In this document: positions 7,007 through 64,000 of the stretch, piece after piece
How the letters are laid out: every line of letters begins with the position of its first letter
Position numbering within the stretch: the stretch's first letter is position 1
NCBI GenBank assembly: GCA_018000295.1
Contig: JAGNKE010000006.1
Coordinates: forward strand, 62,001 to 126,000
Length of the DNA: 64,000 nucleotides
Source of the DNA: Alphaproteobacteria bacterium
Lineage (GTDB): Bacteria > Pseudomonadota > Alphaproteobacteria > Micavibrionales > Micavibrionaceae
Direction: 5' to 3'
The notes under the pieces: generated by a model
The model's input: only the letters and a program-made list of their open reading frames with translations
Database searches by the model: none
What the model was told of the DNA's origin: nothing
Translations under genes and position numbers: made by a program

Positions 7007-7008
7007 TC

Positions 7009-8307: not shown

Positions 8308-8453
8308 TTTATTCCCCCGTATGAAATTAAAAATAAAACTTTCTTATTGCTGTAAACTGTAAACAATCGATCATCCTGAGTCAAATAAGCACAAGCTAAT
8401 AATACGCCAGTATGCAATATGGCGAAAAAAAGGTTGAATAAAATCGAAAATAA

Positions 8454-9401
8454 TTACCGCTTATTCCGCTTCTTGTGCTTGCGGTCCGGCAGCGAACGTC
8501 CCCAGACAAGACTGTCGAGGAGATATTTCGGCCGCACGTTATTATACTGGCGAATCAGGATATCCAGCGCCTTGTCAACATCGCCCAGAGAACGGCAGTT
8601 GCGGAAAGCCGGTTTGTGAATGCCCTGCTTGACAAGGCAGGTATCGATATTCACCAGATGCCCGCCGAGAATATCGTGCGCCATCGTATCGCCGATCATC
8701 ACCGTCTGCCCGGGATAGATATCGTTCTGTTGCAACACGCGAATACAATGCTGGAAAATCGGCTGGTGCGGCTTGCCGATATAATGCACGACCCCGCCGA
8801 AATCCTTGTATCGCGCCGCCAGCGTTCCCGGCCCCATGATATTCTGGCTGCCCATCACACCCAGACTGTCCGGGTTGGCGCAGATCGCCTTGAGTTCGTA
8901 CCGCGCCGCTTCGCGCAACAGCGGCTCGTAATCCTCGACGGTCATGTCAGGAGAGTCCGCGCCGCTGATAAGGATAAAGCTGGCATCCTTGGGGTTTTTC
9001 ACAACCTCGACGTCAAGCCCCTCGACGATCGAACGGTCCCCGCCGCGGCTGATGATCACACACTTTTTGCCGATGCCCTTGAAGTACCCGTCATCCTGAT
9101 CGTGCAACCCCTGCCAGGTGACTTCGCCAGAGGTGATAATCGAATTATAGAGATTGGGCGGAATCCCGAGACTCTCAAGACGCTCCTGGTTCACATCGGC
9201 CCGTTTGCCGGAATTGGAAAGGATGATAACATATTTCTTGCGGCGCTGAAGCTCGCGCAGGCACTCGACCACACCTTCATAAGGAGTTTCCCCGTTATGA
9301 AGCACACCCCACTGGTCGATAATGAAACCGACATAGCTGTCGGAAATATCCGACAGCCCGACACAGAATTTCGTGTTCACGATACTGTTGGTAATCAACA
9401 A
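8454..9401 (-). CDS. HAD superfamily subclass IIA hydrolase (TIGR01459-like)
   Basis: 315 residues. The N-terminal HAD motif I is FIIDQWGVLHNG, motif II is the Ser in VIILSNSGKR, and motif IV is VMIGDTMAHDILGG. The cap region carries ISRGGDRSIVEG and YIGKPHQPIF, as in NagD-like enzymes. The DQWG signature in place of DxDG is typical of the TIGR01459 subgroup. Such enzymes dephosphorylate small phosphometabolites; the substrate of this clade is not established. The C-terminus is basic (RKHKKRNKR). It is a single minus-strand gene flanked by non-coding gaps of about 95 and 146 bases. Confidence 0.87.
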   Translation of the reverse strand: MLITNSIVNTKFCVGLSDISDSYVGFIIDQWGVLHNGETPYEGVVECLRELQRRKKYVIILSNSGKRADVNQERLESLGIPPNLYNSIITSGEVTWQGLHDQDDGYFKGIGKKCVIISRGGDRSIVEGLDVEVVKNPKDASFILISGADSPDMTVEDYEPLLREAARYELKAICANPDSLGVMGSQNIMGPGTLAARYKDFGGVVHYIGKPHQPIFQHCIRVLQQNDIYPGQTVMIGDTMAHDILGGHLVNIDTCLVKQGIHKPAFRNCRSLGDVDKALDILIRQYNNVRPKYLLDSLVWGRSLPDRKHKKRNKR

Positions 9402-9496
9402 GGATTAAACCCTCTTCACCCGGATTATACTGACAGCCGCTGACGCATTATGAGCGGTATCCACAGACTAATCAACAATGATTTATAAAATCTGAA

Positions 9497-11053: not shown

Positions 11054-11135
11054 CGGATAAACCCTGTTCGAAAATTATTCTTAAAGACAAGAAGTAAGCA
11101 ATATTATGCTGATAGAAAGAGTAAATCGTTTTAAA

Positions 11136-11170
11136 GGAAAAGAAAACAGGGGTTGTAAAACAACCCCTGT
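11136..11170 (-). terminator. Intrinsic terminator after the 160-aa secreted protein
   Basis: A perfect 11-bp stem, ACAGGGGTTGT with ACAACCCCTGT, closes a 3-base loop at 11146-11170. On the minus strand it is followed by TTTTCTTTTCC. It lies 29 bases past the stop of the gene at 11199-11681 and before the symporter gene, so it separates the two transcription units. Confidence 0.8.
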
Positions 11171-11198
11171 GACAATCGCTCTCAAAGATAGAAAAAGA

Positions 11199-11681
11199 TC
11201 AACTCTCCTTACAAACCGGATGCGAAACCGGATGGGACGGATAGATCGTCGCCGCCCATTTGCGGATGCCGTCACGGTCCATCTTCGTGGCTTTTTCAAT
11301 CCGGGGCGCATAGCTGCGGCAGAAAATATCGGGGCGCATCTCGGCGGCATCGTTGGAAATCTTGTTGGCGAAATCGGTCCGCATCGTGTTCAGCGTCGCC
11401 TCAGGATTCTTGTCGCCGTTCTTCTTGAGGTATTGCATGATGATCTTTTCATAGGTGGCAAACAGATCGGCGTGCTTCTGCGTGAATTTGCGGTGTTCAA
11501 GATAAAGATTATTGCCGTTTGCGCTCGCCATATGCTGGCAGTTCAGGCCGATGACCATCAACTCGCTGTGAATCCGGATGCCCTGCTCCGCCTCGGCCTC
11601 CTGCTTGGAATAACAGGCTTCGGCCCATGAAGGCGCCGTCGTCAGAATGATAATCATCAGAATAGTCGTAAAAAGTCTCAT
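11199..11681 (-). CDS. Secreted hypothetical protein
   Basis: 160 residues. A clear Sec signal peptide (MRLFTTILMIIILTTAPSWA, cleavage after AWA-like SWA) precedes a helical, charged mature domain with four Cys residues (EACYSK, GLNCQHM, IFCRSY, PVCKES) that could form two disulfides in the periplasm. I do not recognise the family. The visible pattern is polar helices such as KFTQKHADLFATYEKIIMQYLKK. It has its own terminator and is probably monocistronic. The next gene upstream is a 2-hydroxyacid dehydrogenase ending 29 bases away. Confidence 0.8.
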   Translation of the reverse strand: MRLFTTILMIIILTTAPSWAEACYSKQEAEAEQGIRIHSELMVIGLNCQHMASANGNNLYLEHRKFTQKHADLFATYEKIIMQYLKKNGDKNPEATLNTMRTDFANKISNDAAEMRPDIFCRSYAPRIEKATKMDRDGIRKWAATIYPSHPVSHPVCKES

Positions 11682-11709
11682 CTCACATCCCTAATATAAA
11701 GTAGTGTTG

Positions 11710-12654
11710 TTACGTCAATACTGGCGTCAGCAGCGGCTTACCCTCGAAGAATGCATTCAAGTTCTCTACTACAAGTCGCCCCATAAGGGAACGGGTTTCG
11801 CGTGTAGCAGACCCCACATGCGGGGATAAAACCACCTGATCCATCTTCAATAAAGCCGAAGGAACATCCGGCTCGTTAGCAAACACATCCAACCCCGCCC
11901 CGGCGATCTCCCCCGCCTCCAGGGCAGCGATCAGATCATCCTCCTTAACCACCGACCCGCGGGCGATATTAATCAAATATCCCTGCGGCCCAATCGCCCG
12001 GAGAACCTCCCGGTCCACCGTATGCCGCGTCTCCGGTCCGCCCGAACAGGCAAGGATCAGAAAATCGCAAGCCTCGGCCAGCGCAGTTAATTTACCATAA
12101 TAGTCGTAGGGTATATCACTTTTCGGGGAACGGCTGCAATATTTTATTTTCATATTATGTGCAGCAGCTCGCCGCGCAATCGCCTGCCCGATTTTCCCCA
12201 TACCGTAAATCCCCGCAACCTTGCCGGAAAGGCTTGTGGACAGCGGAAATCCGCCCTTCATCCACTCGCCTTCCCGCACAAAGCGGTCGCCCGCAATCCC
12301 CCGCCGTGCCACATTCAAAAGCAGCTGCATGGCCAGATCCGCCGTATCGTCGGTCAGAACATCCGGTGTATTCGTCACGGCAATCCCGCGCTCTTTGGCA
12401 GCCTTCAGGTCAATATTGTCATACCCCGCCCCGAACTGCCCGATAATCCTGAGGTTAGGCAACCGCGCCATCAGGTCTCCTTTGACCCCCTCGCAGTCAT
12501 AGGTCGAGAGAATTGCGGAAACCCCGGCCCCCTGCTTCGCCAGAACGTCCTCCCGCTCAGCCTGTTCCCAAAACGGGATGACATTATAAAGTACGCCAAG
12601 CAGCTTCATCTCATCCGGCAGGATGGCCTTAAGGACAAGGACCGTGGGCTTCAT
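11710..12654 (-). CDS. D-isomer-specific 2-hydroxyacid dehydrogenase
   Basis: About 314 residues from the ATG at 12654 (MKPTVLVLK); a longer frame from 12684 adds ten non-conserved residues. The catalytic domain has GAGYDNIDLKAAKERGI and VTNTPDVLTDDTADLA. The NAD(P)-binding domain has GKVAGIYGMGKIGQ. Catalytic Arg (NIARGS), Glu (AGLDVFANEP) and His (SPHVGSAT) are all present. The family reduces 2-ketoacids such as glyoxylate or hydroxypyruvate using NAD(P)H; the exact substrate cannot be read from sequence. It is divergent from miaB, with a shared regulatory gap of about 115 bases. Confidence 0.9.
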   Translation of the reverse strand: MKPTVLVLKAILPDEMKLLGVLYNVIPFWEQAEREDVLAKQGAGVSAILSTYDCEGVKGDLMARLPNLRIIGQFGAGYDNIDLKAAKERGIAVTNTPDVLTDDTADLAMQLLLNVARRGIAGDRFVREGEWMKGGFPLSTSLSGKVAGIYGMGKIGQAIARRAAAHNMKIKYCSRSPKSDIPYDYYGKLTALAEACDFLILACSGGPETRHTVDREVLRAIGPQGYLINIARGSVVKEDDLIAALEAGEIAGAGLDVFANEPDVPSALLKMDQVVLSPHVGSATRETRSLMGRLVVENLNAFFEGKPLLTPVLT

Positions 12655-12770
12655 TTTCGATCTTCTTTCCAGACGCTGCGCCAAATCCCAAAACGCTTGC
12701 GTCCAAGGGCAGGCCTATGGTTTATGACAGTATTGTGAATTTTGTATATGAAGGCCCGCGCAAAAACAAC

Positions 12771-14117
12771 ATGACAAACACGCAAAAGAAAAAGCTGTTT
12801 ATCAAGACCTGGGGCTGTCAGATGAACGTCTACGACAGCAAGCGCATGGCCGACATCCTCTCCCCGCTCGGCTATCAGGAAACGGACGCCCCCGAGCAGG
12901 CGGACATGATGATCCTCAACACCTGCCACATCCGCGAAAAGGCGACCGATAAAGTCTTCTCAGAACTCGGCCGCCTCCGCGAACATAAAGAGGCACGCGA
13001 AAAAAACGGCGGCAAGGTCATGATCGCAGTCGCAGGATGCGTCGCGCAGGCGGAAGGAAACTTCATCCTCGAACGCGCCCCCTACGTCGATATGGTTTTC
13101 GGCCCGCAATCCTATCACGAACTGCCTGAAATGGTCCTGAAGGCCAACGGCAACGAACGCGTGGTGAACACAGATTTCCCCAGCATTTCCAAATTCGACC
13201 TTCTTCCCGACGAACATAAAAGCCAGGGCGTAACCGCCTTCCTTTCTATTCAGGAAGGCTGCGATAAGTTCTGCACATTCTGCGTTGTCCCGTACACACG
13301 CGGCGCGGAATATTCTCGCACCGTCGCTGAAATTCTCCATGAGGCACACAGGCTGGTCGAAAACGGCGCGAAGGAAATCACGCTTCTGGGCCAGAACGTC
13401 AACGCCTTCCATGGCGAAGGGCCGGACGCCAAAACTTGGGGGCTGGGACGTCTGATCCGTTCAGTTGCCGAAATCGAAGGTCTGGAGCGCATCCGCTACA
13501 TGACCTCCCACCCCCGTGACATGGATGACGACCTGATCGCCGCACACAGTGAGGTCGAAAAACTGATGCCCTTCCTGCACCTACCCGTCCAAAGTGGCGC
13601 GGATAAAATCCTGAAGGCGATGAACCGCAAGCATACGGCGGACGAATACCGCGCAATCATCGAAAAACTCCGCATGGCCAGACCGGATATCGCCTTCTCC
13701 TCCGACTTCATCATCGGCTTCCCCGGAGAAACCGAGAAAGATTTCGAAGACTCCCTCCAACTGGCGAAAGATATAGGCTACGCGTCCTGCTATTCCTTTA
13801 AATACAGCGCACGGCCGGGAACCCCGGCAGCCAATATGCAGAACCTCGTCCATGATAAAATCGCCAGCGAACGCCTGAGCCGCTTCCAGCAACTCATAAG
13901 AGACCAGCAACTGGCTTTCAACGAAAGATCAGTCGGAAAAACGATGCCCGTCCTCTTCGACCGCAAGGGAAAGAAAGACGGACAGCTCCTCGGCCGCAGT
14001 CCTTACAACCAGTCGGTTTTTGCAATCGCAAACCACAGGTTGCTGAACCAGATCATCGACGTAAAAATTTCACAGGGTTATGAAAATTCTTTGACCGGAG
14101 AAATCCGCATCATCTAG
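12771..14117 (+). CDS. miaB: tRNA-2-methylthio-N6-dimethylallyladenosine synthase MiaB
   Basis: About 448 residues from the ATG at 12771 (MTNTQKKKLF); an upstream in-frame start adds 18 unlikely residues. The N-terminal MTTase domain binds an auxiliary cluster through Cys in TWGCQMN, NTCHIRE and AGCVAQ. The radical-SAM motif is CDKFCTFC. A TRAM domain closes the protein (about 375-445). MiaB thiomethylates i6A37 in tRNAs reading UNN codons and needs iron-sulfur clusters, such as those the SUF genes at 46-57 kb would supply. In many alphaproteobacteria miaB directly precedes phoH; here a large RTX gene sits between them. Confidence 0.97.
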   Translation: MTNTQKKKLFIKTWGCQMNVYDSKRMADILSPLGYQETDAPEQADMMILNTCHIREKATDKVFSELGRLREHKEAREKNGGKVMIAVAGCVAQAEGNFILERAPYVDMVFGPQSYHELPEMVLKANGNERVVNTDFPSISKFDLLPDEHKSQGVTAFLSIQEGCDKFCTFCVVPYTRGAEYSRTVAEILHEAHRLVENGAKEITLLGQNVNAFHGEGPDAKTWGLGRLIRSVAEIEGLERIRYMTSHPRDMDDDLIAAHSEVEKLMPFLHLPVQSGADKILKAMNRKHTADEYRAIIEKLRMARPDIAFSSDFIIGFPGETEKDFEDSLQLAKDIGYASCYSFKYSARPGTPAANMQNLVHDKIASERLSRFQQLIRDQQLAFNERSVGKTMPVLFDRKGKKDGQLLGRSPYNQSVFAIANHRLLNQIIDVKISQGYENSLTGEIRII

Positions 14118-14197
14118 CAAAGGCGGAAAGCCTACTAAATTCATAGCGTCTTCTGCAAAGAAAATATCTCTTCTCACGAAAATTAATTGTTTGAAAG

Positions 14198-14241
14198 TGA
14201 ATCCGATTCATTGCAATCTTTTTGTCATAGAAATGACAAAA
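14198..14241. promoter_or_regulatory. Two inverted repeats upstream of the RTX gene
   Basis: In the 256-base gap after miaB, TGAATCCGATTCA (14198-14210, 5-bp arms) is followed by TTTTGTCAT-AGAA-ATGACAAAA (14220-14241, 9-bp perfect arms). The second lacks a terminator-like GC stem and looks more like an operator than a terminator. It lies 132 bases before the RTX start. No regulator was matched to it. Confidence 0.4.
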
Positions 14242-14373
14242 GAATGTTTTTTTTATGTCCAAACGAAAGGTCTTTGACTTCTTCGCGCAAGACAGAAAAC
14301 TTTTTTGCTCATTTCTAGCCTATCGGCCCGTCAAGCCCTATCGCAACACAATGCTTATGTAAAGGAATGTACC

Positions 14374-17190
14374 ATGCCCACTATCCCCGAAATCGAAGCC
14401 AACCTTCTCCTCGCCTCTTCCACAGGAAACGCGACGCTGTTTGCCACAACGCTGGCCAGCATCACGACCGCGCAAAAACCGCTGATCACGGTTTATCCGC
14501 AAACCCTGTCGAACCTGACATTCCTGTCCAGCCCCTCTCTTGCTGAAAGCATGACCCGCAACATGATGTCCACGGTTGGAACTTATGTCGATGCCTTCTC
14601 GATCGGCAGTGCCATGGAGCAATACTCGCAAGGCAGCAACTGGGGCGCACTGGACGCAGTGACGGATTATCTCTCGGCAGCCCAGAAAACCACCTTGGGA
14701 ACGACCGCCTCGCCGGGCACGACCCTGCTGAACATCACCTTCAACGACGACCCGTTCACCTCTGCTGACGATTCCGTGATTGCCACCGCCGTAAGGGATC
14801 TGATGACCAAGCTCGGCGCCCAGACCAATGCCTTCGACATCGGCGTGGCGATGGAGCAGTTCTCCCAGAGCAAAAACTGGGGAGCCCTTGATGCAGTCAC
14901 TGACTTCCTGACACCAGGACAGAAAACGACTCTGGGAACGACAGCCTCTCCGGGCAGAACCCTTCTCAACGTCACCTTTAACGATGACCCCTTCACCAAC
15001 GCCGATGATGCGGCCATCGCTGCCGTCGTGCGTGACCTGATGATCAAACTCGGCGCCCAGACCAATGCCTTCGACATCGGCGTGGCGATGGAGCAGTTCT
15101 CTCAGAGCAAAAACTGGGGAGCGCTCGATGCCGTCACCGACTATCTGTCGTCAGCGCAGAAAACGACCTTGGGAACCACAGCCTCTCCGGGAATCACCCT
15201 GCTCAACATCACCTTCAATGATGACCCCTTCACGACGACAGACGATACCATCATTGCCAATGTTGTACGCGATCTGATGTTCAAGCTCGGCGTCCACACC
15301 AACGCCTTTGACATCGGCCAAGCTATGGAGCAATTCTCCCAGAACAAAAACTGGGGAGCGTTGGACGCGGTCACTGATTACCTGTCCGCCGCCCAGAAGA
15401 CCACGCTGGGAACGACGGCCTCCCCGGGGACAACCCTGCTCAACATCACATTTAACGACGATCCATTTACCACGGCGGATGACGTAACAATTGCCGACGC
15501 CGTGCGTAACCTGATGAGCAAACTGGGAGCGCAAACAAACGCCTTCGATATCGCCCTTGCGATGGAGCAGTTCTCCCAGAGCAAAAACTGGGGAGCGTTG
15601 GACGCCGTCACTGATTACCTGACAACAGGACAAAAGACCACGCTCGGTACAACAGCCTCTCCGGGCATCACGCTGCTCAACATCACCTTCAACGATGATC
15701 CTTTCACCACCGCAGACGATGCCACCATCGCCGGTGTCGTCAGGAATCTGATGATCAAGCTCGGCGCACAGACCAACGCCTTCGACATCGGAACCGCTAT
15801 GGAGGAATTCTCTCAGAGCGGTAATTTTGGTGCCTTGGACGCAGTCACCGACTACCTGACCACAGCACAGAAAACGACTCTCGGCACAACCCCTGCTCCG
15901 GGCAACACCCTGCTCAACATCACGTTCAATGACGACCCCTTCACCACGGCAGACGATGCTCTCATCGCCTCCACGGTTCGGGATCTGATGATCAAGCTGG
16001 GGGCACAAACCAACGCCTTTGACATCGGCGTCGCCATGGAGCAGTTCTCTCAGAACCGCAACTTCGGCGCTCTGGACGCGGTCACCGACTACCTGACGAC
16101 GGCTCAGAAAACCACTTTGGGAACAACGCCTTCAGTCGGCAACACCCTGCTGAACATCACCTTCAATGACGATCCGTTTACAACAGCTGATGATGTCCTG
16201 ATCAAGGATACCGTCAGAGATCTGATGTTCAAACTCGGCGCGCAAACCAATGCCTTCGACATTGGCACAGCCATGGACATATATTCCCAGAGCCTCAACT
16301 ACGGCGCACTGGACGCGGTCACCGACTACCTGACCGCCGCTCAGAAGACAACCTTGGGAACAACGCCCGCCCCGGGTCAAACCTTGGTGAACGTCGCCTT
16401 CAACGATGATCCCTTCACGGCTGCGGATAATATTATCGCCTCTAACGCCGCTCGGGATCTTATGGTGAAACTCAACGGACAGGTCAATGAATTCGATCTG
16501 GCCCTGGCCACCGAGGTCTTTGCCGGAAACGGCAATGCCAACGGGGTGGATGCCGTGATCGGCGAGTTAACCTCCACCCAGTTCACCAGCAACCTGCAAA
16601 ATCTGATCGCACCCGCGCTCTCGGCCGCAGGAATCACGCTGGGAACGCAATCCGCGAATACTTACACCGGCACCTCCGCCGCGAATAAGTATCTCGGTTT
16701 GGGCGGCAACGACACTCTCAGCGGTTTGGACGGCAACGACGAACTGTACGGCGATGCGGGAACCGACATTCTTTATGGCGGTAACCACAACGACACCCTG
16801 CATGGCGGATCGAGCAACGACACCCTCAACGGTGATGCCGGCAACGACATCCTCTTCGGTGGGCGGGGCAGCGACACCCTCTACGGCGGCGCGAATGCGG
16901 ATACCTTCGTGTTCGATGCCAACGACCGGGGGTCGGGCTCCGACACGATCAAGGACTTCAGCACCGCTCAGGGCGATAAGATCGACATCTCCGATGTCCT
17001 CGAACAGCATGACGGATCCGAGATACTCAGCCAGTTCGTCCGCCTCACAACCTCGGGGGCCAACACGCTCCTGCAGGTCGATATGGACGGCACGAGCGGT
17101 TCCTTTGGTTTTACGACCGTCGCAACCATCGAGAATGTCATCGGCCTTGACCTGAACACCCTCGTCAATAATGGAACGATCATCGTCTAA
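14374..17190 (+). CDS. Large RTX-type type I secretion substrate with 79-aa repeats
   Basis: 938 residues from the ATG at 14374 (MPTIPEIEAN), chosen because AAGGA lies just upstream; a longer frame begins at 14305. There is no Sec signal. Residues about 71-702 are eight repeats of exactly 79 residues plus a ninth degenerate unit; each carries TNAFDIG, GALDAVTDYL, QKTTLGTT, LLNITFNDDPFT and VRDLMxKLGAQ. Residues about 770-845 hold RTX calcium-binding nonapeptides (GGNDTLSG, GNDILFGG, GSDTLYGG). The C-terminus (DTIKDFSTAQGDKIDIS to NNGTIIV) is a type I secretion target domain. The protein is probably exported by an ABC/MFP/TolC system that is not in this window, then folds in external calcium. 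Adhesin or surface-layer roles are possible; no enzymatic domain is visible. Confidence 0.9.
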   Translation: MPTIPEIEANLLLASSTGNATLFATTLASITTAQKPLITVYPQTLSNLTFLSSPSLAESMTRNMMSTVGTYVDAFSIGSAMEQYSQGSNWGALDAVTDYLSAAQKTTLGTTASPGTTLLNITFNDDPFTSADDSVIATAVRDLMTKLGAQTNAFDIGVAMEQFSQSKNWGALDAVTDFLTPGQKTTLGTTASPGRTLLNVTFNDDPFTNADDAAIAAVVRDLMIKLGAQTNAFDIGVAMEQFSQSKNWGALDAVTDYLSSAQKTTLGTTASPGITLLNITFNDDPFTTTDDTIIANVVRDLMFKLGVHTNAFDIGQAMEQFSQNKNWGALDAVTDYLSAAQKTTLGTTASPGTTLLNITFNDDPFTTADDVTIADAVRNLMSKLGAQTNAFDIALAMEQFSQSKNWGALDAVTDYLTTGQKTTLGTTASPGITLLNITFNDDPFTTADDATIAGVVRNLMIKLGAQTNAFDIGTAMEEFSQSGNFGALDAVTDYLTTAQKTTLGTTPAPGNTLLNITFNDDPFTTADDALIASTVRDLMIKLGAQTNAFDIGVAMEQFSQNRNFGALDAVTDYLTTAQKTTLGTTPSVGNTLLNITFNDDPFTTADDVLIKDTVRDLMFKLGAQTNAFDIGTAMDIYSQSLNYGALDAVTDYLTAAQKTTLGTTPAPGQTLVNVAFNDDPFTAADNIIASNAARDLMVKLNGQVNEFDLALATEVFAGNGNANGVDAVIGELTSTQFTSNLQNLIAPALSAAGITLGTQSANTYTGTSAANKYLGLGGNDTLSGLDGNDELYGDAGTDILYGGNHNDTLHGGSSNDTLNGDAGNDILFGGRGSDTLYGGANADTFVFDANDRGSGSDTIKDFSTAQGDKIDISDVLEQHDGSEILSQFVRLTTSGANTLLQVDMDGTSGSFGFTTVATIENVIGLDLNTLVNNGTIIV
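14584..16479 (+). repeat. Eight 237-bp in-frame tandem repeats
   Basis: Units begin at 14584, 14821, 15058, 15295, 15532, 15769, 16006 and 16243, all exactly 237 bp apart with no indel. A divergent ninth unit starts at 16480. Middle units are the most alike; outer ones diverge, for example SIGSAMEQYS in the first and FDLALATEVFAG in the ninth. DNA divergence between copies is largely at third positions, suggesting old duplication with selection on the protein. Confidence 0.92.
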
Positions 17191-17208
17191 TCCATTGAAA
17201 TCCTTAAA

Positions 17209-17236
17209 AGACCCGGAGTATTCCGGGTCTTTTTTT
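17209..17236 (+). terminator. Intrinsic terminator after the RTX gene
   Basis: Stem AGACCCGGA / TCCGGGTCT with a 4-base loop, followed by six further T residues. It begins 18 bases after the RTX stop codon and isolates this gene from phoH. Confidence 0.9.
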
Positions 17237-17311
17237 GCTTTTTAATGTTTTTATTTGCGAATTTGGACTAAAATATGCTTTATAAGCCCTCTTGAAAGTG
17301 AAGGAGAATAC

Positions 17312-18274
17312 TTGCCCCAGGAACTATTTTTAGAATTTAAAAACAACAACTTACTGCCGTTTCTCTTCGGCGAGCACAACACACACCTCTCCCACCTCGA
17401 AAAAGTGCTGAATATCTCGATTTCGGACAGAGGAAACACCCTGCGGCTGGCGGGTGAAAGCATTCCGGTCAGGCAGGCGCAGAACATCCTCAACACCCTC
17501 TACAGAAAGCTTGAAAACAAAGACATAGCTGAAGTCAGCCCCGCGGATATCGACGCGCAGCTCCGCTTCATCAACGATCCTTCAAAGGACTCGAACGGCT
17601 TGGCAGGCGAAGACAAGCGCGACAGCCTGACCATCCGCACCAAAAAGAAAACGATCGCGGCGCGCACACCGAATCAGATGGCCTACCTGGAACAAATCCG
17701 CCAGAAAGAAATGGTCTTCGGCCTCGGCCCAGCCGGAACGGGAAAAACCTATCTGGCCGTCGCCGCGGGCGTAGATATGTTCCTGCAGGGTCGCGTTGAA
17801 CGCCTTGTGTTTTGCCGACCCGCTGTCGAAGCGGGAGAAAATCTCGGCTTTCTCCCCGGCGACATGAAGGAAAAAATCGACCCCTACCTTCGCCCTGTCT
17901 ATGACGCCCTGCACGATATGCTGCCGTTCGACTTTCTGGTCAAGCGTATGGAAACAGGCGATATCGAGATCGCACCTCTGGCCTTCATGCGTGGCCGCAC
18001 TCTCGCCCATTCCTTTGTAATTCTGGACGAAGCCCAGAACGCGACCACCATGCAGGTGAAAATGTTCCTGACCCGCATGGGCGAAGCCTCCCGCATGGTG
18101 ATTACCGGCGACCCGAAGCAAAGTGACCTGCCCGCGCACGTGAAATCCGGCCTGAACGAAGCCGTTGAACTTCTCTCCGGCATCGAAGAAATCGGTTTCA
18201 CGCACTTTGAACTCAAGGACGTGATCCGCCATCCCCTTGTCGGAAAAATCCTCAAGGCCTACGATAAACAATAA
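17312..18274 (+). CDS. PhoH-family ATPase
   Basis: About 320 residues from a TTG at 17312, preferred because AAGGAG ends 5 bases upstream; an earlier TTG at 17255 lacks a ribosome site and would overlap promoter space. A KH-like N-terminal region (about 1-100) precedes the PhoH P-loop domain: Walker A GPAGTGKTYLA, Walker B VILDEAQNAT and TGDPKQSDLP. PhoH-like (YbeZ) proteins bind ATP and RNA and work with YbeY in ribosome and RNA maturation. The ybeY gene follows 12 bases later, and corC and lnt come next, an order conserved in alphaproteobacteria. Confidence 0.93.
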   Translation: MPQELFLEFKNNNLLPFLFGEHNTHLSHLEKVLNISISDRGNTLRLAGESIPVRQAQNILNTLYRKLENKDIAEVSPADIDAQLRFINDPSKDSNGLAGEDKRDSLTIRTKKKTIAARTPNQMAYLEQIRQKEMVFGLGPAGTGKTYLAVAAGVDMFLQGRVERLVFCRPAVEAGENLGFLPGDMKEKIDPYLRPVYDALHDMLPFDFLVKRMETGDIEIAPLAFMRGRTLAHSFVILDEAQNATTMQVKMFLTRMGEASRMVITGDPKQSDLPAHVKSGLNEAVELLSGIEEIGFTHFELKDVIRHPLVGKILKAYDKQ

Positions 18275-49054: not shown

Positions 49055-49671
49055 CTTTGCAAAACCTCCCTGATCCGCTCCAAAACTCCTTCGGTGTTAT
49101 TTAAAACGTCATGATTCCAGAACCTCAAGACACGATAGCCCTGCCCTTCAAGAAATGCCGTCCTGATCATATCGTTTGAGTTTTCATTATGTTGTCCGCC
49201 ATCTGCCTCGATAATAAGCTTTGCCGAAAAACAGTAAAAATCAACAACATAAGAACCAACGGGATATTGTCGCCGAAATCTCACACCGAGTTGATCCGCA
49301 CGGATCAAAGCCCAGAGCTTCTTCTCAGCCTCAGTTGGATCTTTCCTTAATTTTCTCGCAACAGGCGTCAATCGACGCTTGCGGTTGTTATTTCTCTTTT
49401 TTGGGAGATCGACTACCCCCTCTCCCTGGGATTGCATCCCTCCCCTCTCACCCGCCTTCAGGGATGGCACATTTCCCCTCTCACCCGCCTGCGGGGATGG
49501 CACATTTCCCCTCTCACCCGCCTTCAGGGATGGCACATTTCCCCTCTCACCCGCCTGCGGGGATGGCACATTTCCCCTCTCACCCGCCTTCAGGGATGGC
49601 ACATTTCCCCTCTCACCCGCCTGCGGGGGAGAGGGGTTAGGGGAGAGGGGGCGTTGAATATTCTCGCTCAC
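49051..49671 (-). CDS. DUF559 endonuclease-like protein with repeat-expanded N-terminus
   Basis: 206 residues from a GTG at 49671 that overlaps the upstream stop. Residues about 8-78 are an 11-residue tandem repeat (GERGNVPSLKA alternating with GERGNVPSPQA). Residues about 95-205 are a DUF559 domain of the Vsr/PD-(D/E)XK-like fold: ARKLRKDPTEAEKKLW, FRRQYPVGSYVVDFYCFSAKLIIEADGGQH, GYRVLRFWNHDVL. DUF559 genes are often associated with intergenic repeats in alphaproteobacteria; the enzyme's role is unknown. The repeat portion is likely inserted sequence. Confidence 0.85.
   Translation of the reverse strand: MSENIQRPLSPNPSPPQAGERGNVPSLKAGERGNVPSPQAGERGNVPSLKAGERGNVPSPQAGERGNVPSLKAGERGGMQSQGEGVVDLPKKRNNNRKRRLTPVARKLRKDPTEAEKKLWALIRADQLGVRFRRQYPVGSYVVDFYCFSAKLIIEADGGQHNENSNDMIRTAFLEGQGYRVLRFWNHDVLNNTEGVLERIREVLQR
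49442..49630. repeat. 33-bp tandem repeats, two alternating variants
   Basis: Units of the form CTCTCACCCGCC + TTCAGGGAT or TGCGGGGAT + GGCACATTTCCC recur every 33 bp, starting near 49446, 49479, 49512, 49545 and 49578, with a sixth partial unit at 49611 that runs into GGGGGAGAGGGG. The two variants alternate strictly, giving a 66-bp higher-order repeat. There are no spacers between units, so it is not a CRISPR. The flanking CCCTCTC/GAGAGGG sequences form an inverted repeat like common intergenic palindromes. Confidence 0.93.
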
Positions 49672-57004: not shown

Positions 57005-57163
57005 TTGAAACAGAGCAGAAGACCTCGAATTGCAAAAAACGCAAGATTTCATATCAAAAAGAGCTTTTTGCGAATGGTGGAGCTTTCGGGTGAGGTGTCG
57101 AACCGTTTGTTTGAGGTTTTTGAGGAATGGGAACATATTGTAAGAAAATCCTACACTTATTAG
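57005..57163 (+). pseudogene. Possible small ORF or gene remnant in the gap before the NRPS operon
   Basis: A plus-strand frame of 52 codons from a TTG at 57005 (ATG at 57074). Its end reads VELSGEVSNRLFEVFEEWEHIV, split here as VELSGEVSNRL and FEVFEEWEHIV, which has protein-like amphipathic character. No ribosome site is seen and no start is convincing. It could be the 3' remnant of a lost gene at the island edge, or chance. The rest of the gap (56911-57167) contains only the regulator's upstream region and AT-rich sequence. A minus-strand frame at 56948-57136 is less plausible. Confidence 0.25.
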
Positions 57164-57167
57164 AAGT

Positions 57168-60140
57168 CTAGGGCCCTAAAATTTCCTTGATACACATTGC
57201 GAGTTGTCTTGACGTTGGGTTTTTAATGATTTTGTCAAGATTAGCAGAGGCCAAAAATGTGTCGTGTAGATGTTCCGGCAGTAATATTTTTGAGGCTTGT
57301 AGAGTTAGAATAACAAAATTCAGGGAATCGCAGCCAAGGTCGAAAAAGGATACATCTGGGTTAATCGTTTTATTTGGGACTTTAAGGACATCGCAAACGA
57401 TTGCGCACACTTTTTGGATGATTTCGTCTTCATCAATGTTGTTGGTTTCAGAATGTGTGCCAACGGATGCAGGTAACATGGAGCCAAGAAGCTTTTCATC
57501 CGCCTTACCATTTATCGTTAATGGAATGCTTTCAACGTGTATGAACATGGCAGGACGCATATAGGCAGGAAAAAGTCTGCTGGCTTCCGTTTTTAGAAAA
57601 TCATCGTCTAACGGGACAGTGGACGTATAAAATGCCGCCATAAAGCTATTATTGCCATCGCCCGCCGTGATTGCGACGCAATCTTTAATATTTTCTATTT
57701 TTTTTATCGTGTTTTCAACTTCGCCGAGCTCAATGCGATAGCCGCGTATTTTCATTTGGCGGTCGATACGCCCCAAGTAGTAAAGTCTTCCATCTTTTTC
57801 CCATGTCGCCAGATCCCCCGTGCGGTACGCTATGGTATCTGTTTCTGGTAGACGCACAAACTTTTCCTTATTGAGTTCCGGTGCGCGATAATAACCGTTG
57901 GCTAGGCAATCGCCAGAGATATAAATCTCTGCGGCTATTCCATAGGGTGCAGGTTTTCCCTCGTCATCAAGGAGATGGATCCTCGTATTGGCAGCGGGTA
58001 CTCCAAGGGGTACAGAAATATTTGTATCTCTATCAGGGTTAAATTCATGCACCATACAGCCAACAGTCGCTTCGGTTGGGCCATATTCATTAAATATTTT
58101 TGCCCGACCGCCGCAATCTTCGTAAATGGCCTTTGCCAATGCGGTAGAAAGATTTTCTCCTCCCACGATAAGGCGGCGAAGGGGAATTTTCTCTGTTCCT
58201 GCTTCCTTAAGAATTTTAAGGTGAGACGGTGTCAATTTAAGACAATTCACCCGTTTATCATGAACCATTGTATGAATTGTATCTAACCGGAGTCCCTGCG
58301 GAAAAATATCTATGGCTCCGCCTGTTGTTAATGGCAAAAAAATGGAGGTCAGAGTAAGATCAAACGCGAAGGACGTAAACAATCCAAAAATTGATTGTTC
58401 ATCAAGGCTGTCAAGATAGTGATGTTTTGCCCAACTTAGATAATTCACAAGGCTACGATGACAGACCTCAACGCCTTTTGGTTTCCCAGTCGAACCGGAT
58501 GTGTAAATGATATAGGCGATATCCTCTGCGCATGTTTCCGGTATGGGAAGGCCGTATTGAGCATTGGCCGTCACATTTTCGGGATGAATTTTTTTAACTC
58601 TTTCAAAGGCGGAAAATAGAGAAAAATCCTCAGTAAAAATATAGTCGGCCTCGCTGTCTTTTAAGATGGTTTCTATTCTTTCAGGCGGATTTTCGGGATC
58701 TATGGGTACGAAAACACCGCCTGCTTTTAATATAGCTAAAAAGCAAGCGGGCACCAAAAGGGAATGGGACATACAGATTGCAACCCGATCACCTTTTTTT
58801 AGTCCGTGATGAAGCAGCTCTTGCGCGAGGGCATTAGACCGGATTTCTAATTCTGCGTAGGTAAGTGTTTGTTCTTTTTCAAATATAGCAATGGCATCCG
58901 GCGTTTTTGCAGCCTGACTTTCAAACAAATCATGGACAGTGCGATTGCGGGGATATGAGGTTTCAGTTTTGTTCCAGTCTTGAGGTATGGAAGGCGTTTC
59001 GTGTAATGCGTTTTCAATGTCCTGCAAAATTCTTTTAGGATCGCCGTTTCTATCAGGACTTTTCAGGCTTGAAGCGCATACTCTGAGGATGCCCCCGCTT
59101 TCGGTACTAACAATAGTGAGAGGCATGGCTGGCATATTGAGGGGCAAGAAAAAAGCCGAGGAGGCCTTAAAATCTGGACATGATAACGGTATCAAATCCA
59201 CCTGTCCGATATGTGAAATGGTGGCAGAAAAGGGAAATTTTTTGCGCTTTAAGCATACTTTATGTATGCAAGCCAGAGCAAAGGGAGGGAGTAATGCATA
59301 TATACGATCAAGAGAAGACATTGCACTCTCCTGATTTTCTTGCAGGGCTTTGATAATATTCGCGTATATATGCTCCCATTGCTCACCAGCACACACATCA
59401 ATTATTAACGGTGAAGTCATGTTTGCGGTCGCGCGGATATGCGGTAATTTTCTGCGCAGATCAACGGGGATCATAAATCTTAGGGCTTGGTGCCCTTGTA
59501 AATGTGCGCGTTCCATAAGACAGGCCGCGGTCTTGGCAACAAAACTAGTGTGCCCTCCGGCAAAGGAGGCTTCGCTCCAGACAAAACCGCTATTCAGGAA
59601 AGCATTGCCTCCCGCGGGGGCGTAAGAAAAAGGCGTGCTTATGCGAGAATTTTCATGACCAAGAGAAAGAAGAAGTTCTTGATCTGTCATTGTTGAATTT
59701 GTTCCGAGGGGTTCTTCCTTGCGAAGCACTCGAAAGGTCTCTTCGGCCCAAAATTGTATGCCTTTTGCATCCATGACAGCATGTGATGCGCGAAAGATAA
59801 TTCGTTGGCCACAAACATAAACTTCTGCGGTGGGGCCTTTTTTTATATCCATCGGTTTTAAAGACAAAAGATCGCTTATGTTCTGAAAATCGTTTTCCTC
59901 AAGTATATGTACGGGGGGATTTTTTTTGCTATCGAACCATTTTCCTTTTTGATAAACAAGGCGGCATCCGGGGTTTTTGTCTGCAACATGGTTTAGCGCA
60001 TCTTGTAATGTATTTACTTTTACTTTCCCTTCTCCTTCGATAACCATATGCAGGCAGAAAGGCGGGAATAATTTTGCAATATTCAGGTAAAGATGTTCGC
60101 TAAAAGATACATTGCGATAAAAAGTCATTTGCTCTTTCAT
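57168..60140 (-). CDS. Single-module NRPS: condensation-like, adenylation (Asn-type code), carrier
   Basis: 990 residues. Residues about 1-390 are a condensation/acyltransferase-like domain; its active motif reads SHAVMDAKG (His120, Asp124) in place of HHxxxDG. Residues about 400-885 are an adenylation domain: YTSGSTGKPKG (546-556), NEYGPTEATVG, YRTGDLATW, GRIDRQMKIRGYRIELGEVE, NGKADEK with Lys879. Aligning by eye to GrsA positions 235-331 gives D594, L595, T598, K635, I658, G660, E685, V693, G694, closest to published asparagine codes (DLTKLGEVG). The carrier domain (about 905-985) has LGCDSLN with phosphopantetheine Ser939. There is no thioesterase or epimerase. Base composition is AT-rich compared with the SUF genes. 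Confidence 0.9.
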   Translation of the reverse strand: MKEQMTFYRNVSFSEHLYLNIAKLFPPFCLHMVIEGEGKVKVNTLQDALNHVADKNPGCRLVYQKGKWFDSKKNPPVHILEENDFQNISDLLSLKPMDIKKGPTAEVYVCGQRIIFRASHAVMDAKGIQFWAEETFRVLRKEEPLGTNSTMTDQELLLSLGHENSRISTPFSYAPAGGNAFLNSGFVWSEASFAGGHTSFVAKTAACLMERAHLQGHQALRFMIPVDLRRKLPHIRATANMTSPLIIDVCAGEQWEHIYANIIKALQENQESAMSSLDRIYALLPPFALACIHKVCLKRKKFPFSATISHIGQVDLIPLSCPDFKASSAFFLPLNMPAMPLTIVSTESGGILRVCASSLKSPDRNGDPKRILQDIENALHETPSIPQDWNKTETSYPRNRTVHDLFESQAAKTPDAIAIFEKEQTLTYAELEIRSNALAQELLHHGLKKGDRVAICMSHSLLVPACFLAILKAGGVFVPIDPENPPERIETILKDSEADYIFTEDFSLFSAFERVKKIHPENVTANAQYGLPIPETCAEDIAYIIYTSGSTGKPKGVEVCHRSLVNYLSWAKHHYLDSLDEQSIFGLFTSFAFDLTLTSIFLPLTTGGAIDIFPQGLRLDTIHTMVHDKRVNCLKLTPSHLKILKEAGTEKIPLRRLIVGGENLSTALAKAIYEDCGGRAKIFNEYGPTEATVGCMVHEFNPDRDTNISVPLGVPAANTRIHLLDDEGKPAPYGIAAEIYISGDCLANGYYRAPELNKEKFVRLPETDTIAYRTGDLATWEKDGRLYYLGRIDRQMKIRGYRIELGEVENTIKKIENIKDCVAITAGDGNNSFMAAFYTSTVPLDDDFLKTEASRLFPAYMRPAMFIHVESIPLTINGKADEKLLGSMLPASVGTHSETNNIDEDEIIQKVCAIVCDVLKVPNKTINPDVSFFDLGCDSLNFVILTLQASKILLPEHLHDTFLASANLDKIIKNPTSRQLAMCIKEILGP

Positions 60141-61285
60141 GGTTTATGCCCGTCCCACTCAAGGCCGAAATTATAGATCTCTGCTACAGTTTTATTATTT
60201 TTTCCGGCAATTTTCAGAAGTTCTACAGAAGCAACTATTTGCGAGATAAACGGCAGAGGGTCGCGCCAGTCAAACAAGACGTCCCGTGCACGCCAAAATC
60301 GTTTTGTAAATTCTTTCAAGCGCCCTTTTCGGAATTCGTCGGCGGCACATAAGAAAAATACAGCCAGTCCGGCCATGCGCGGAGGGGATGTCGCGCCGTC
60401 ATAAAAAGTTGTTTCATTTCCTAAAAAAACCGTTCCCCAGTCCTGGAAGTTTTCCATTAAATGTATACCGGCGGTTGCTCGGGGATTACATTCAATTACA
60501 TACAGTTTTTTGGTATTATCTTCTATGATGTCGAAGGCAACTTGCCCTGTAAAAGAGTTTTTAAGTCCAAAGGCACGCGTAAAATCAAGTATGGCGAGGT
60601 GGTGAACCGGTTCGAAGTAAATACCGCTTCCTTTGCCGATACGATAAAGCGGGTTATAGCACGCATGCGCAAGCAATTTTCCGTTATTAAAAACGCTGTA
60701 GGTACAAAATTCTGTGCCGGAAATTAGCTTTTGTACAATGAGAGGATTTGACTCTTCGATTGAAAGCAACGTGGCCTGTTCCCAAGATGGGGAAAGCACT
60801 GTACGAAAGGAGCCCCGTGAAAATTCAGGCTTTATTATGCAATTACCTAATTCATTAAGGGCATGCAAAAGTGATGAAGGATCTTTTACATACCTGCTTT
60901 TAGGTATTTCTGCACCGCACCCCTCAACCAGAGAACGATAATGCCATTTGCTGTGCAAGGTTTCTAATTGAGTTGCTGTTCCACAAAAAAGTCGTGCGGT
61001 TTTTTCAATATCTTCCTTGATGCGCGAAAGGAAAAATATTTCTTCGTTAACAGGAATAACAAGGTCAATGCCTCTTTCCCTAATCGTTTTTATTACGGTC
61101 TGATAAAAGCCTTGAAGATCAAGGGCAGGAGCCGGAAGTTTTATATAGTCATCCGCATATTTTGAAAATCGCGTAAAGGGATAGTCGAGGCTATCTGCGA
61201 CGATAACTTCAATATTTTGCATTTTGAGTGCTTTTGCAATCGCACGCGCCATTGGTAATCGCGCTCCCGTGATAAGTGCCCTCAT
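60137..61285 (-). CDS. ATP-grasp ligase, biosynthetic type
   Basis: About 382 residues from the ATG at 61285, which overlaps the upstream stop (ATGA); a frame from 61372 is longer but starts inside the neighbour. A Rossmann-like pre-ATP-grasp domain (MRALITGARLPMARAIAKAL) is followed by VIPVNEEIFFLS, the nucleotide-binding IIKPEFSRGSFRT and LIVQKLISGTEFCTYSVF, then the metal-binding VIECNPRATAGIHL. It resembles CarB-like carboxylate-amine ligases and may join an acid to an amine with ATP. It overlaps the NRPS gene by 4 bases, so both probably act on the same product. Confidence 0.88.
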   Translation of the reverse strand: MRALITGARLPMARAIAKALKMQNIEVIVADSLDYPFTRFSKYADDYIKLPAPALDLQGFYQTVIKTIRERGIDLVIPVNEEIFFLSRIKEDIEKTARLFCGTATQLETLHSKWHYRSLVEGCGAEIPKSRYVKDPSSLLHALNELGNCIIKPEFSRGSFRTVLSPSWEQATLLSIEESNPLIVQKLISGTEFCTYSVFNNGKLLAHACYNPLYRIGKGSGIYFEPVHHLAILDFTRAFGLKNSFTGQVAFDIIEDNTKKLYVIECNPRATAGIHLMENFQDWGTVFLGNETTFYDGATSPPRMAGLAVFFLCAADEFRKGRLKEFTKRFWRARDVLFDWRDPLPFISQIVASVELLKIAGKNNKTVAEIYNFGLEWDGHKP

Positions 61286-62583
61286 GAGAATGCACTCCTC
61301 CGGATACGTCTTTGTTTCTGTAGTAAAGATTCCATCTTGAGGCTGTCTCGAATAAAAGAAGGTGGGATGCATCCCTGATCAATGAAAGCCTTGTTGAGGT
61401 TCAGGATCAGTTTCCCCCAATCTGTTGCGGAAAGGAAGTCCTGAACTTCGATACGGATCGTGCCGACCGATTCTTGTACTATTCTGTAATCGGAGATACT
61501 CGGAGAAGATCGAATAACCAATTGCCGAAGCTGGTCGGGAAAAATAGGGATCTGTTTTTCGTTATTGTGATTTTGACCGTATAACAAATCGTCCATACGC
61601 CCTTCAATTTGCGTGATCACTGTCGAAACCCGTCCACATGGGCATGGACGTTCGTCCAGAACAAGAATGTCATCAAGTTTATATCGAACTATGGGCTGTG
61701 TGGTGCGGGAAAAATCTGTGATGACGGGAGAAAATCTCCCTGTGGTGCGATCAATCCATTCTTTCTCAACAAGAAGATATTCTTCATTTAAATGGATGTT
61801 GTTATGCTCGCATGTATATCCCAGAAACCCTTCGGTACATTGATATATTTGATGAACCGGTTGTGCGAAGACATCCGATATGGTTTTAGCATCCAGAGGA
61901 TCAAGTACTTCAGCAACGGACGTAATACGCCGAGGATGAATGTTTATTTTTCCTTGTTTTTGCATTTGTGCAATCAGACACAGAACGCGGGCGGGTGCAA
62001 TAATTTGGGTTGGTTGCATATCATTCAGGGCTGAAAGATGTCCGTCAAATGGCTGCGTCAGGTCAAAAAAACGAAATGACAGCCGCCCACGTTTGTGAAC
62101 ACTGTCATAGAGATTACTGCCGGCGCGAAGGAAAAATGCAAGTTTGTGATTGCCAAGGATCGACGTATCCAGTGCGCGGGCAAGCACGACACCAGCCCAG
62201 CGGGCGCGTTCCTTATCACTAACGGCAAACAGTCCACGGTTGCCGCTTGTGCCTGAAGAAAGACCTATGGTAATTCCATTGATTTTCTTGCTGAAATCTC
62301 GTGTGTCTTCTGCTTCAAGCGCAAGATGCATTGCGTCCTGCAACTTTATGCCACATGTGTTGATGTCATCAAAATGCGTCATCATAAGTGCTTTGTTCAT
62401 TACAGGAAAATCAGAAAAGATTTTTTTCATATAGGGCTGGTAAAAAGGTGACTTGCTTAAGCAGGATCGGCGAAAATTTTCTAGTTTTCGCTGTTGGTAA
62501 TTGTACAACGCAGATTTGCTTTTGAACCGCAGGCCGTAGCGGGTACGCAAATAGTTTTGTACGAAAATTGTTGCATTTCTCAT
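61282..62583 (-). CDS. Adenylate-forming enzyme, PaaK/CapK (F390 synthetase-like) family
   Basis: 433 residues. P-loop-like GLSSGTSGNRGLF (about 110-122), YQCTEGFLGYTC, the RYKLDDILVLDERPCPCGR block with Cys residues typical of PaaK/CapK relatives, and IEGRMDDLL. It matches the TIGR02304-type putative adenylate-forming enzymes. It probably activates a carboxylic acid as acyl-AMP and passes it to CoA or a carrier protein, perhaps as substrate for the NRPS condensation-like domain. Overlaps the MBL gene by 4 bases. Confidence 0.85.
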   Translation of the reverse strand: MRNATIFVQNYLRTRYGLRFKSKSALYNYQQRKLENFRRSCLSKSPFYQPYMKKIFSDFPVMNKALMMTHFDDINTCGIKLQDAMHLALEAEDTRDFSKKINGITIGLSSGTSGNRGLFAVSDKERARWAGVVLARALDTSILGNHKLAFFLRAGSNLYDSVHKRGRLSFRFFDLTQPFDGHLSALNDMQPTQIIAPARVLCLIAQMQKQGKINIHPRRITSVAEVLDPLDAKTISDVFAQPVHQIYQCTEGFLGYTCEHNNIHLNEEYLLVEKEWIDRTTGRFSPVITDFSRTTQPIVRYKLDDILVLDERPCPCGRVSTVITQIEGRMDDLLYGQNHNNEKQIPIFPDQLRQLVIRSSPSISDYRIVQESVGTIRIEVQDFLSATDWGKLILNLNKAFIDQGCIPPSFIRDSLKMESLLQKQRRIRRSAFS

Positions 62584-63410
62584 TGAGGGCCTTCGATTTC
62601 TTGGGTTATCTCATTGCAATGCGAAGGAATAAGCCTTATATCGCTGCGCGTTAGACTAAGCCGGTGCAATTTAATAAGCGTTTGTTTATATTCTGCGGGG
62701 TCGTGCAGCAGTGCCATAACGATAGAAGGTGGAAGAATAAATTTCCTGTAGGATTCTGAACGCCAGCAAGAGTCCGCTATAAGCATGATGTCATTATTTT
62801 GCAAATAAAGCCCGTATTGGCCAACCGCATGCCCGGGTAGTGAAACACCAATAAGAGTGCCATCTCCAAAGAGGTCATGCCCTTCATTAAAGCCTGTCAA
62901 TTTCTCATGTAGTGCGTAACGGGGAGCATCTTCTATGAAGCGTAAGCGGCTGACCATATCGGCAGGTAACAAAGAAGAGATATAACCTTGTCGGAATGCT
63001 TTCCAGCCTTGCAGCTTATGAAGTTTCTCCCATGCTTCTCGGGCGCAAATAAAATTGGCAGTGGGAAAATCCTTAAGACCTGCAATGTGGTCGGGATGAA
63101 AATGAGAGATGATGATATGTTTTACATCTTCAGTTTTGTGCCCGCGTTTTAAAAGCTGAGAAGGCAGGTATTCATCTGCACGGATAATAGAAGGCAAAAC
63201 GCGGTTATATATGCGCAATGCCCAATCGTCTGTTTCCTGTTGTATGCGTGGAGCGTAGCCGGTATCGAAGAGTATCAGCCCGTGTATGGGGTGCTCTATA
63301 AGGCCTAAGTGTGCAGGAAATTCTTTTGGGCTAAAAGATTTTGTACGTAATGCTGACCATTCGGGATGTTTGCAGCATCCACATGTTAAAAGGCAGAATT
63401 TCAGTTGCAT
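62580..63410 (-). CDS. MBL-fold metallohydrolase
   Basis: About 276 residues from the Met at 63410 (MQLKFCLLTCGCCKHPEW); a frame from 63428 adds six. The metal motif is SHFHPDHIAGL, followed by SLPGHAVGQYGL, LIADSCWRS and the final IPSHCNE, giving a complete dinuclear site. Homologues include lactonases and thioesterases. In an NRPS cluster without a thioesterase, it could release or edit the product; this is inference. A Cys-rich N-terminus (TCGCCKH) is unusual. Confidence 0.88.
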   Translation of the reverse strand: MQLKFCLLTCGCCKHPEWSALRTKSFSPKEFPAHLGLIEHPIHGLILFDTGYAPRIQQETDDWALRIYNRVLPSIIRADEYLPSQLLKRGHKTEDVKHIIISHFHPDHIAGLKDFPTANFICAREAWEKLHKLQGWKAFRQGYISSLLPADMVSRLRFIEDAPRYALHEKLTGFNEGHDLFGDGTLIGVSLPGHAVGQYGLYLQNNDIMLIADSCWRSESYRKFILPPSIVMALLHDPAEYKQTLIKLHRLSLTRSDIRLIPSHCNEITQEIEGPQ

Positions 63411-64000
63411 GTATGCTCCTTCCACCATGAAGAAAAGCGTGTGAGACCTTCATCCATGCTTATTTGGGGTGTATAGCCAAGGCCAATTCTTGCGGCGTTG
63501 ATGTCCAATGTCTGGCTATTAGCGAGAAGAGCAGCTGTGTAGCAGGTAAGCATGGGTTCGGTGTTGTGTTTTTTGCCGGAATGCTCAAGCATTTTCGCGC
63601 ATGAATTAAGCAAGGTATAGGGAACATGCAGGATGCGAGGCGAGATGCCGAGTTTCAAAAACAGGGTATCGACAAGCCGGTGCACATGCCAAGGATCACC
63701 ATTTGTAATATTGTATATTTTTCTTGTATTCATTGCGCTCGTTTCAAGTGCAAGCCTGAGCGCGTGTGCCACGTTTTCAACATATGTCATGTCTACAAGG
63801 GCCACACCTCTTCGTGGTATGGGAAGAATTTTTTTACTTCCGGCGTGAATGATTTTTGGTAAAACTACGGAATCGTGCGGGCCAAATATGCCGCGCGGGC
63901 GAATGATAACCGTTTCCAGTCCGCGTAATGCAGCTTTTTGCACTTCCAGTTCGGCTTCGTATTTTGTTGATGCGTAATGATTGGCAAAAGGACTCGCGAC
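63401..64000 (-). CDS. NAD-dependent epimerase/3beta-HSD-like SDR, 5' end cut by window
   Basis: 200 codons of the C-terminal two-thirds; the start is beyond the right edge. The catalytic Tyr-Lys pair is seen in HYASTKYEAE, followed by VIIRPRGIFGPHD, VDMTYVENVAHAL and YNITNGDPWHVHRLVD, as in extended SDR enzymes. It would reduce, oxidise or epimerise a pathway intermediate with NAD(P). The stop overlaps the MBL start by 10 bases. The operon likely continues upstream outside the window. Confidence 0.88.
   Translation of the reverse strand, partial: VASPFANHYASTKYEAELEVQKAALRGLETVIIRPRGIFGPHDSVVLPKIIHAGSKKILPIPRRGVALVDMTYVENVAHALRLALETSAMNTRKIYNITNGDPWHVHRLVDTLFLKLGISPRILHVPYTLLNSCAKMLEHSGKKHNTEPMLTCYTAALLANSQTLDINAARIGLGYTPQISMDEGLTRFSSWWKEHTCN

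Follow-up and report, generated by a model that had tools for sequence, protein, structure and literature searches.

A seven-gene operon with signs of foreign origin sets an asparagine-type nonribosomal peptide synthetase beside a widespread gene core in a lipid setting

At the right edge of a 64,000-nt stretch of a Micavibrionaceae (Alphaproteobacteria) genome, hereafter the window (positions 62001–126000 of contig JAGNKE010000006.1, which extends to 130113), lies an operon that ends in a stand-alone nonribosomal peptide synthetase (NRPS). All positions are in window numbering, and the part of the operon beyond 64000 was read from the rest of the same contig. A preliminary description of the window had listed five overlapping genes on one transcript coming in from the right, and their coordinates and domain matches bear this out: all on the minus strand, they encode an extended short-chain dehydrogenase/reductase (SDR; 63401 to 64000 and on to 64393 past the window, 330 aa in full), a lactonase-like hydrolase of the metallo-β-lactamase (MBL) fold (62580–63410), a PaaK/F390-synthetase-like adenylate-forming enzyme of the TIGR02304 family (61282–62583, 433 aa), an ATP-grasp ligase (60137–61285, 382 aa) and the NRPS (57168–60140, 990 aa). 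Counted from the NRPS upstream, the overlaps are 4, 4, 4 and 10 bases, the last growing to 28 if translation of the MBL protein begins at its first ATG. The five genes are as described, but the operon extends further: the sequence right of 64000 adds the remainder of the SDR, a ketosynthase III (KSIII; 64390–65403, minus strand), whose gene overlaps that of the SDR by 4 bases, and a TetR regulator (65416–66009, minus strand), 12 bases from the KSIII gene. With its seven genes, the operon is ~2 kb longer than the window could show, and the layout predicts one transcript that enters the window from the right and is headed by TetR and KSIII.

What do the individual enzymes look like? The adenylate-forming enzyme scores 468.6 bits against TIGR02304 (cut-off 251.9); phenylacetate-CoA ligases are its nearest solved structures, and invariant motifs are found in A1. 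In the MBL protein, all metal ligands are present (H109, H111, D113, H114, H200, D219 and H270, numbered from the upstream ATG at 63428). The SDR, with conserved S112, Y140 and K144, finds its best NCBIfam match in the 2-alkyl-3-oxoalkanoate reductase OleD at 198.6 bits, which is below the cut-off of 580; an LstD-like SDR of Rhodococcus scores 209 against the same family. The KSIII is of the PRK07204 type and retains the triad C121/H264/N294. Its nearest structures in the PDB are MxnB (E 1.8e-61) and CorB (6.8e-59), enzymes that join two acyl chains. Since both outscore FabH and the gene is bound into an operon, a plain housekeeping FabH is not favoured. The ATP-grasp ligase matches Pfam ATP-grasp_3, and its AlphaFold model (pLDDT 93.1, pTM 0.91) fits the folds of PurK, PylC and RizA-like or amino-acid ligases, a fold that by itself does not reveal the substrate. 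Its start at 61285 is most likely the true one, as it yields an ATGA overlap of 4 bases with the neighbouring gene; an alternative ATG lies at 61372.

The NRPS reads as condensation (C), adenylation (A) and peptidyl carrier protein (PCP) domains. Its AMP-binding domain (TIGR01733, 392.9 bits; cut-off 317.4) is the sole A domain over the curated cut-off in the genome, and the PCP matches PF00550 at 36.1 bits and carries its serine in the motif LGCDSL. Only ~40 aa follow the PCP, and a thioesterase is absent, just as the preliminary description had noted. That description had also called the A domain Asn-type, which the ten-residue specificity code confirms: it reads DLTKIGEVGK, which we take to be the Asn code of the tyrocidine and bacitracin synthetase A domains, and with a match this exact the domain is predicted to select Asn. 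The C domain stands by its predicted fold but not by family, for the first 385 residues drew no Pfam match, even with the threshold relaxed to E 5, and the C-domain profile found nothing among PDB sequences. An AlphaFold model built from four sequences reached a pLDDT of 55 and a pTM of 0.53; nearly all Foldseek matches of this weak model are condensation domains or their relatives (the RzmA starter C domain, SrfA-C, PapA5), and VIA-align gave Z scores up to 16.5 at a root-mean-square deviation of 9.8, with 252 residues aligned to condensation-type folds. SHAVMDA takes the place of HHxxxDG, retaining the His and Asp as SHxxxDA. By this model, the N-terminal domain adopts a condensation fold, which Pfam fails to detect.

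To see how much of the operon is conserved, we compared 90 loci, drawn from distant searches and from a scan of named genomes that supplied the best-scoring 80 of 569 confirmed relatives; the proportions describe that sample, and in 79 of the loci the upstream side was long enough to judge. KSIII, SDR and MBL genes adjoin the TIGR02304 gene on the same strand and in the same order in 75 of these 79, a synteny beyond chance, and the earlier remark that such enzymes occur next to MBL and SDR genes proves correct and understated. A gene for ATP-grasp accompanies 43 of the 79. Record titles place the loci in Proteobacteria, Bacillota and Elusimicrobia, in an Ardenticatenales bacterium and elsewhere. 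The conserved unit is KSIII-SDR-MBL-TIGR02304 and not the five genes once put forward as a set, which we reject since this neighbourhood comparison, of ~91 loci with our own, turned up no other locus with both ATP-grasp and NRPS. Two roles assigned in the preliminary description change with it. The adenylate-forming enzyme, cast there as activating the acid that condenses with carrier-bound Asn, is part of the core and does not go with the NRPS, and release of the product as the main role of the MBL protein is unlikely, because nearly every locus has the MBL gene while the majority lack an NRPS.

An NRPS was found in three other loci of the ~91, twice as a full copy and once as a stand-alone C protein. 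A C-A-PCP NRPS comes directly after the core in Noviherbaspirillum humi (L047), where its code is DLTKVGEVGK, and in an uncultured proteobacterium (L094), where it is DLTKIGEVGK; both proteins are 35–36% identical to the window NRPS and have the same kind of C domain. Unlike the window operon, these two loci have no ATP-grasp gene, and downstream lies a PAP2 gene in both and a desaturase gene in L094. In a Pelomonas locus (L067), the C domain stands alone and a desaturase follows. Operons that carry the NRPS are a new variation on a widespread core.

The neighbourhood of this core is a lipid setting, given that its accessory partners are lipid genes. One set, in Enterobacterales and Burkholderiales, consists of PAP2, a fatty acid hydroxylase and fatty acid desaturases; another, in Bacillota and others, of ATP-grasp and an acyltransferase-like protein (annotated GNAT in the deposited records), together with either a 3-ketosphinganine-reductase-like SDR or a Rieske oxygenase. 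A third is a sulfotransferase (Paracoccus, Ketogulonicigenium), a fourth Aas/LplT. We considered the acyltransferase-like protein (c7) as a hidden condensation domain and rejected this idea, as neither profile hidden Markov models nor hhalign gave a match. On plasmids of Paracoccus (L109) and Ketogulonicigenium (L112), the core comes with a divergent TetR gene and the sulfotransferase, an apparent head-group variant. In three further loci from Legionellaceae and a gammaproteobacterium (L072, L090, L075), it lies beside a glycosyltransferase-like gene (MRIITVLDSYPPDLNGGAYFTHRLA...), which in L072 and L090 is the only recognised accessory gene adjoining the core.

The first of these sets also occurs in Escherichia coli. 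In strain LF82 (L107:11905–18786), a seven-gene operon between narI and tyrT runs KSIII-SDR-MBL-TIGR02304-PAP2-fatty acid hydroxylase-desaturase: its first four genes keep the order of the window operon, whereas it continues with the last three and is devoid of both ATP-grasp and NRPS. An operon of this type was found in 672 of 5,426 complete E. coli genomes (~12%), at ≥80% of the query length in all but one (671/672), and its carriers, gut and urinary E. coli among them, include Nissle, CFT073, LF82 and an ST131 strain. We know of no described product of the narI–tyrT operon; its presence in these strains means that the product of the core can be sought in a tractable laboratory organism. A literature search of limited coverage found no paper on the core under TIGR02304, 'F390 synthetase-related' or 'CoF synthetase'; the F390 synthetase mentioned in a 2009 paper on ladderanes is part of another cluster.

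Which known systems does the operon resemble? Like the preliminary description, we know of no set that contains all these genes. The closest annotated relatives of the NRPS point to lipstatin. In a search of plasmid proteins, its C domain matched only actinobacterial NRPSs, and the full protein is 33% identical over 981 aa (E 1.8e-159) to an NRPS on a plasmid of Rhodococcus sp. H-CA8f (L118); the C domain is equally close to that protein and to the proteobacterial copies. The Rhodococcus region (7001–17806) encodes two KASIII or KASIII-like ketoacyl synthases, an OleC-like ligase (535.7 bits to olefin β-lactone synthetase), an OleD-like SDR, the NRPS, a formyltransferase and an MMPL protein, which we take to be the composition of the lipstatin operon, and its proteins here stand in for the Lst proteins of Streptomyces toxytricini. 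Common to both systems are a KASIII, an SDR whose nearest family is OleD (below the cut-off in either case), an adenylate-forming enzyme and a stand-alone C-A-PCP NRPS that is homologous over its full length and has no thioesterase. Lipstatin carries its amino acid esterified to a hydroxyl of the lipid, the presumed site of transfer by the NRPS LstE; an NRPS handing its amino acid to a lipid in this way would explain the missing thioesterase. There are also differences: a formyltransferase is absent from the operon and the adjoining genes of the contig, MBL and ATP-grasp are added, and the Asn code contrasts with DMALIGSIVK in the Rhodococcus NRPS, a code to which no substrate is assigned. As the KSIII type, the ligase and the formyltransferase all differ, the operon is not a member of the lipstatin clusters.

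OleABCD offers a second comparison. Both systems unite a KSIII-superfamily enzyme, an OleD-like reductase, an adenylate-forming enzyme and a hydrolase in one operon, but here the hydrolase has an MBL fold in contrast to the α/β-hydrolase OleB, the ligase is PaaK-like rather than OleC, and by PDB scores the KSIII is closer to FabH and MxnB than to OleA. As for myxopyronin and corallopyronin, whose MxnB and CorB are the closest solved structures to the KSIII, a pyrone-type polyketide synthase is missing from the window operon. Streptomyces NRPSs of the same kind adjoin a type I polyketide synthase and a TauD oxygenase in two of three cases read, both with Asn-type codes. These two, lipstatin-type C-A-PCP NRPSs on the plasmids L119 and L120, are arranged in a manner suggesting that they may act in trans to cap polyketides with (hydroxy-)Asn.

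Taking gene content, synteny, folds, catalytic residues, the Asn code, the NRPS homology and the signs of foreign origin as observed, we infer every reaction of the following pathway and the order of its steps. At a probability of roughly one half, the locus is a TetR-controlled, acquired operon for a lipid natural product, whose core makes the lipid and to which the NRPS adds Asn and the ATP-grasp ligase an amide. The KSIII would condense an acyl chain with another acyl unit or with malonyl, and the OleD-like SDR would reduce the β-keto group. The PaaK-like TIGR02304 enzyme would adenylate the resulting acid on its way to a CoA thioester, an ester or, as OleC does, a β-lactone, while the lactonase-like MBL protein might hydrolyse a thioester or lactone intermediate. 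In the variable head-group step, the NRPS would load L-Asn onto its PCP and the C domain would transfer Asn, or else acyl-Asn, between the PCP and the lipid. The likeliest linkage, as in lipstatin, is an ester with a hydroxyl of the lipid; this transfer may itself release the product, with no need for a thioesterase. The ATP-grasp ligase could then attach an acid or amino acid through an amide bond, perhaps on the free amine of Asn. The scheme of the preliminary description—activation of an acid, condensation with carrier-bound Asn, amide formation, release by the MBL protein—is supported in part; the KSIII, which lies past the window edge, was missing from it. For the core as such, we regard it as an even bet that it represents an unrecognised lipid natural-product pathway parallel to OleABCD, with a different ligase and hydrolase and with head groups supplied by exchangeable modules: PAP2/hydroxylase/desaturase, ATP-grasp plus acyltransferase, sulfotransferase, or Asn-loading NRPS. 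What had been a vaguely defined NRPS operon thus becomes a testable statement, namely that an Asn-loading, lipstatin-type NRPS was grafted onto a widespread lipid-making core.

Several observations weigh against the Asn-bearing lipid. The ATP-grasp gene is absent from the other NRPS-bearing loci, which renders its link to Asn weak, and the C-domain model is a weak one (pLDDT 55). Identity between the KSIII, which is of the PRK07204 type, and the LstA-like protein is just 23%; LstA and LstB form an adjacent KASIII pair (PMC12141560), whereas no LstB or second KSIII adjoins the KSIII here. The TIGR02304 ligase is PaaK-type and has no BLAST match to the LstC/OleC-like protein. In the genome, one phosphopantetheinyl transferase was detected (C29:71230–71517; 136-aa frame), AcpS-type by its length, so activation of the PCP is not assured and the holo form would require an AcpS-type enzyme of broad specificity. 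Finally, we know of no product for any TIGR02304 operon.

The same evidence can be arranged differently. The C domain might be of the starter type and N-acylate Asn on the PCP with a fatty acyl thioester supplied by KSIII and SDR, after which the MBL protein or another hydrolase would free N-acyl-Asn for further ligation by the ATP-grasp enzyme. The fatty-acyl starter C domain of RzmA does provide the top Foldseek matches, but a low-confidence model makes any ranking among C domains mean little; likewise, the unrelated GNAT-annotated protein that occupies the position of the NRPS in many loci would fit N-acylation, yet the closest annotated NRPS relatives sit in a lipstatin-type cluster, where transfer to a lipid hydroxyl is assumed. 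No dedicated hydrolase is seen either, as the MBL gene is equally present without an NRPS, and we consider this route rather unlikely. It is more doubtful that the operon makes a true β-lactone, with TIGR02304 as a PaaK-type β-lactone synthetase and an Asn-bearing esterase or lipase inhibitor of the esterastin kind as the product. Esterastin does carry Asn, and the co-occurrence of KSIII, OleD-like SDR, adenylate-forming enzyme and lipstatin-type NRPS speaks for such a molecule, as does the finding that oleACD without oleB gives β-lactones (PMC7064751). Against it stand the lack of an OleC homologue, with CoA ligases nearest to TIGR02304, and a KSIII that is of the PRK07204 and not the LstA type; moreover, a lactonase-like MBL protein would threaten a β-lactone unless it served in self-protection or editing.

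Might the island instead hold two unrelated functions, a membrane lipid made by the core and a separate Asn-derived molecule made by a recently joined tail gene? The NRPS occurs in few loci and is the last gene of the operon, and the E. coli operon does without it. But in two other proteobacteria an Asn-code NRPS with the same kind of C domain comes immediately after the core, at 35–36% identity to the window protein. Since L047 and L094 share this arrangement and nearly the same code, the association of NRPS and core is either old or was made repeatedly. The NRPS gene, besides, overlaps the ATP-grasp gene translationally, and we hold this separation of functions to be very improbable.

Low GC content and absence from sister genomes both point to a foreign origin of the operon and are what would be expected of horizontal acquisition, with no donor identified. 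The GC content is 43–46% across the operon as compared to mostly 49–61% in the adjoining 17 kb, where a few 1-kb segments fall below that range. Two sister genomes from the same genus, with SufB 95–97% identical, were compared: the operon and the divergent transporter gene described below are missing beside iscR-suf in the stretches read of both, and among the 57 nearest relatives none has a TIGR02304 match over the cut-off, weak sub-threshold matches occurring in two. DNA homology to one of them (the sister genome L122) stops at ~56978, 190 bases short of where the NRPS gene ends. The left boundary is marked by a short sequence (57065–57147, plus strand), further copies of which occur on C42 and C30 of this genome and on C4 of a sister genome.

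On the far side of the TetR gene, 90 bases away and divergent from it, an LplT-like transporter of the major facilitator superfamily (MFS) is encoded on the plus strand (66100–67383), which may carry the product while TetR represses. A 1226-aa frame at C10:18201, judged by its length, is probably a full-length Aas-like protein native to the genome, in which case this transporter would be an extra copy. Between the TetR and MFS genes lies a TetR-type palindrome, TTGAACT-A-AGTTCAA (66040–66054), that overlaps the −10 box of the leftward promoter match with the highest score. The match (10/12) is tied with two others elsewhere in the region, and across the whole region promoter-like matches are no more frequent than in shuffled sequences; the position of the palindrome over the −10 box is no more than suggestive of TetR control of the operon, shared with the divergent MFS gene.

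Apart from the operon, the window contains several repeats. At 49441–49628, a 33-base unit in 5.5 copies (or a 66-base unit in 2.8 copies at 100%) within a DUF559-like frame is translated into PSPQAGERGN/PSLKAGERGN repeats. Tandem repeats of 237 bases fill 14602–16418 in 7.7 copies, and 27-base repeats at 16775–16893 have an RTX-like look (GGxGNDTLYG type).

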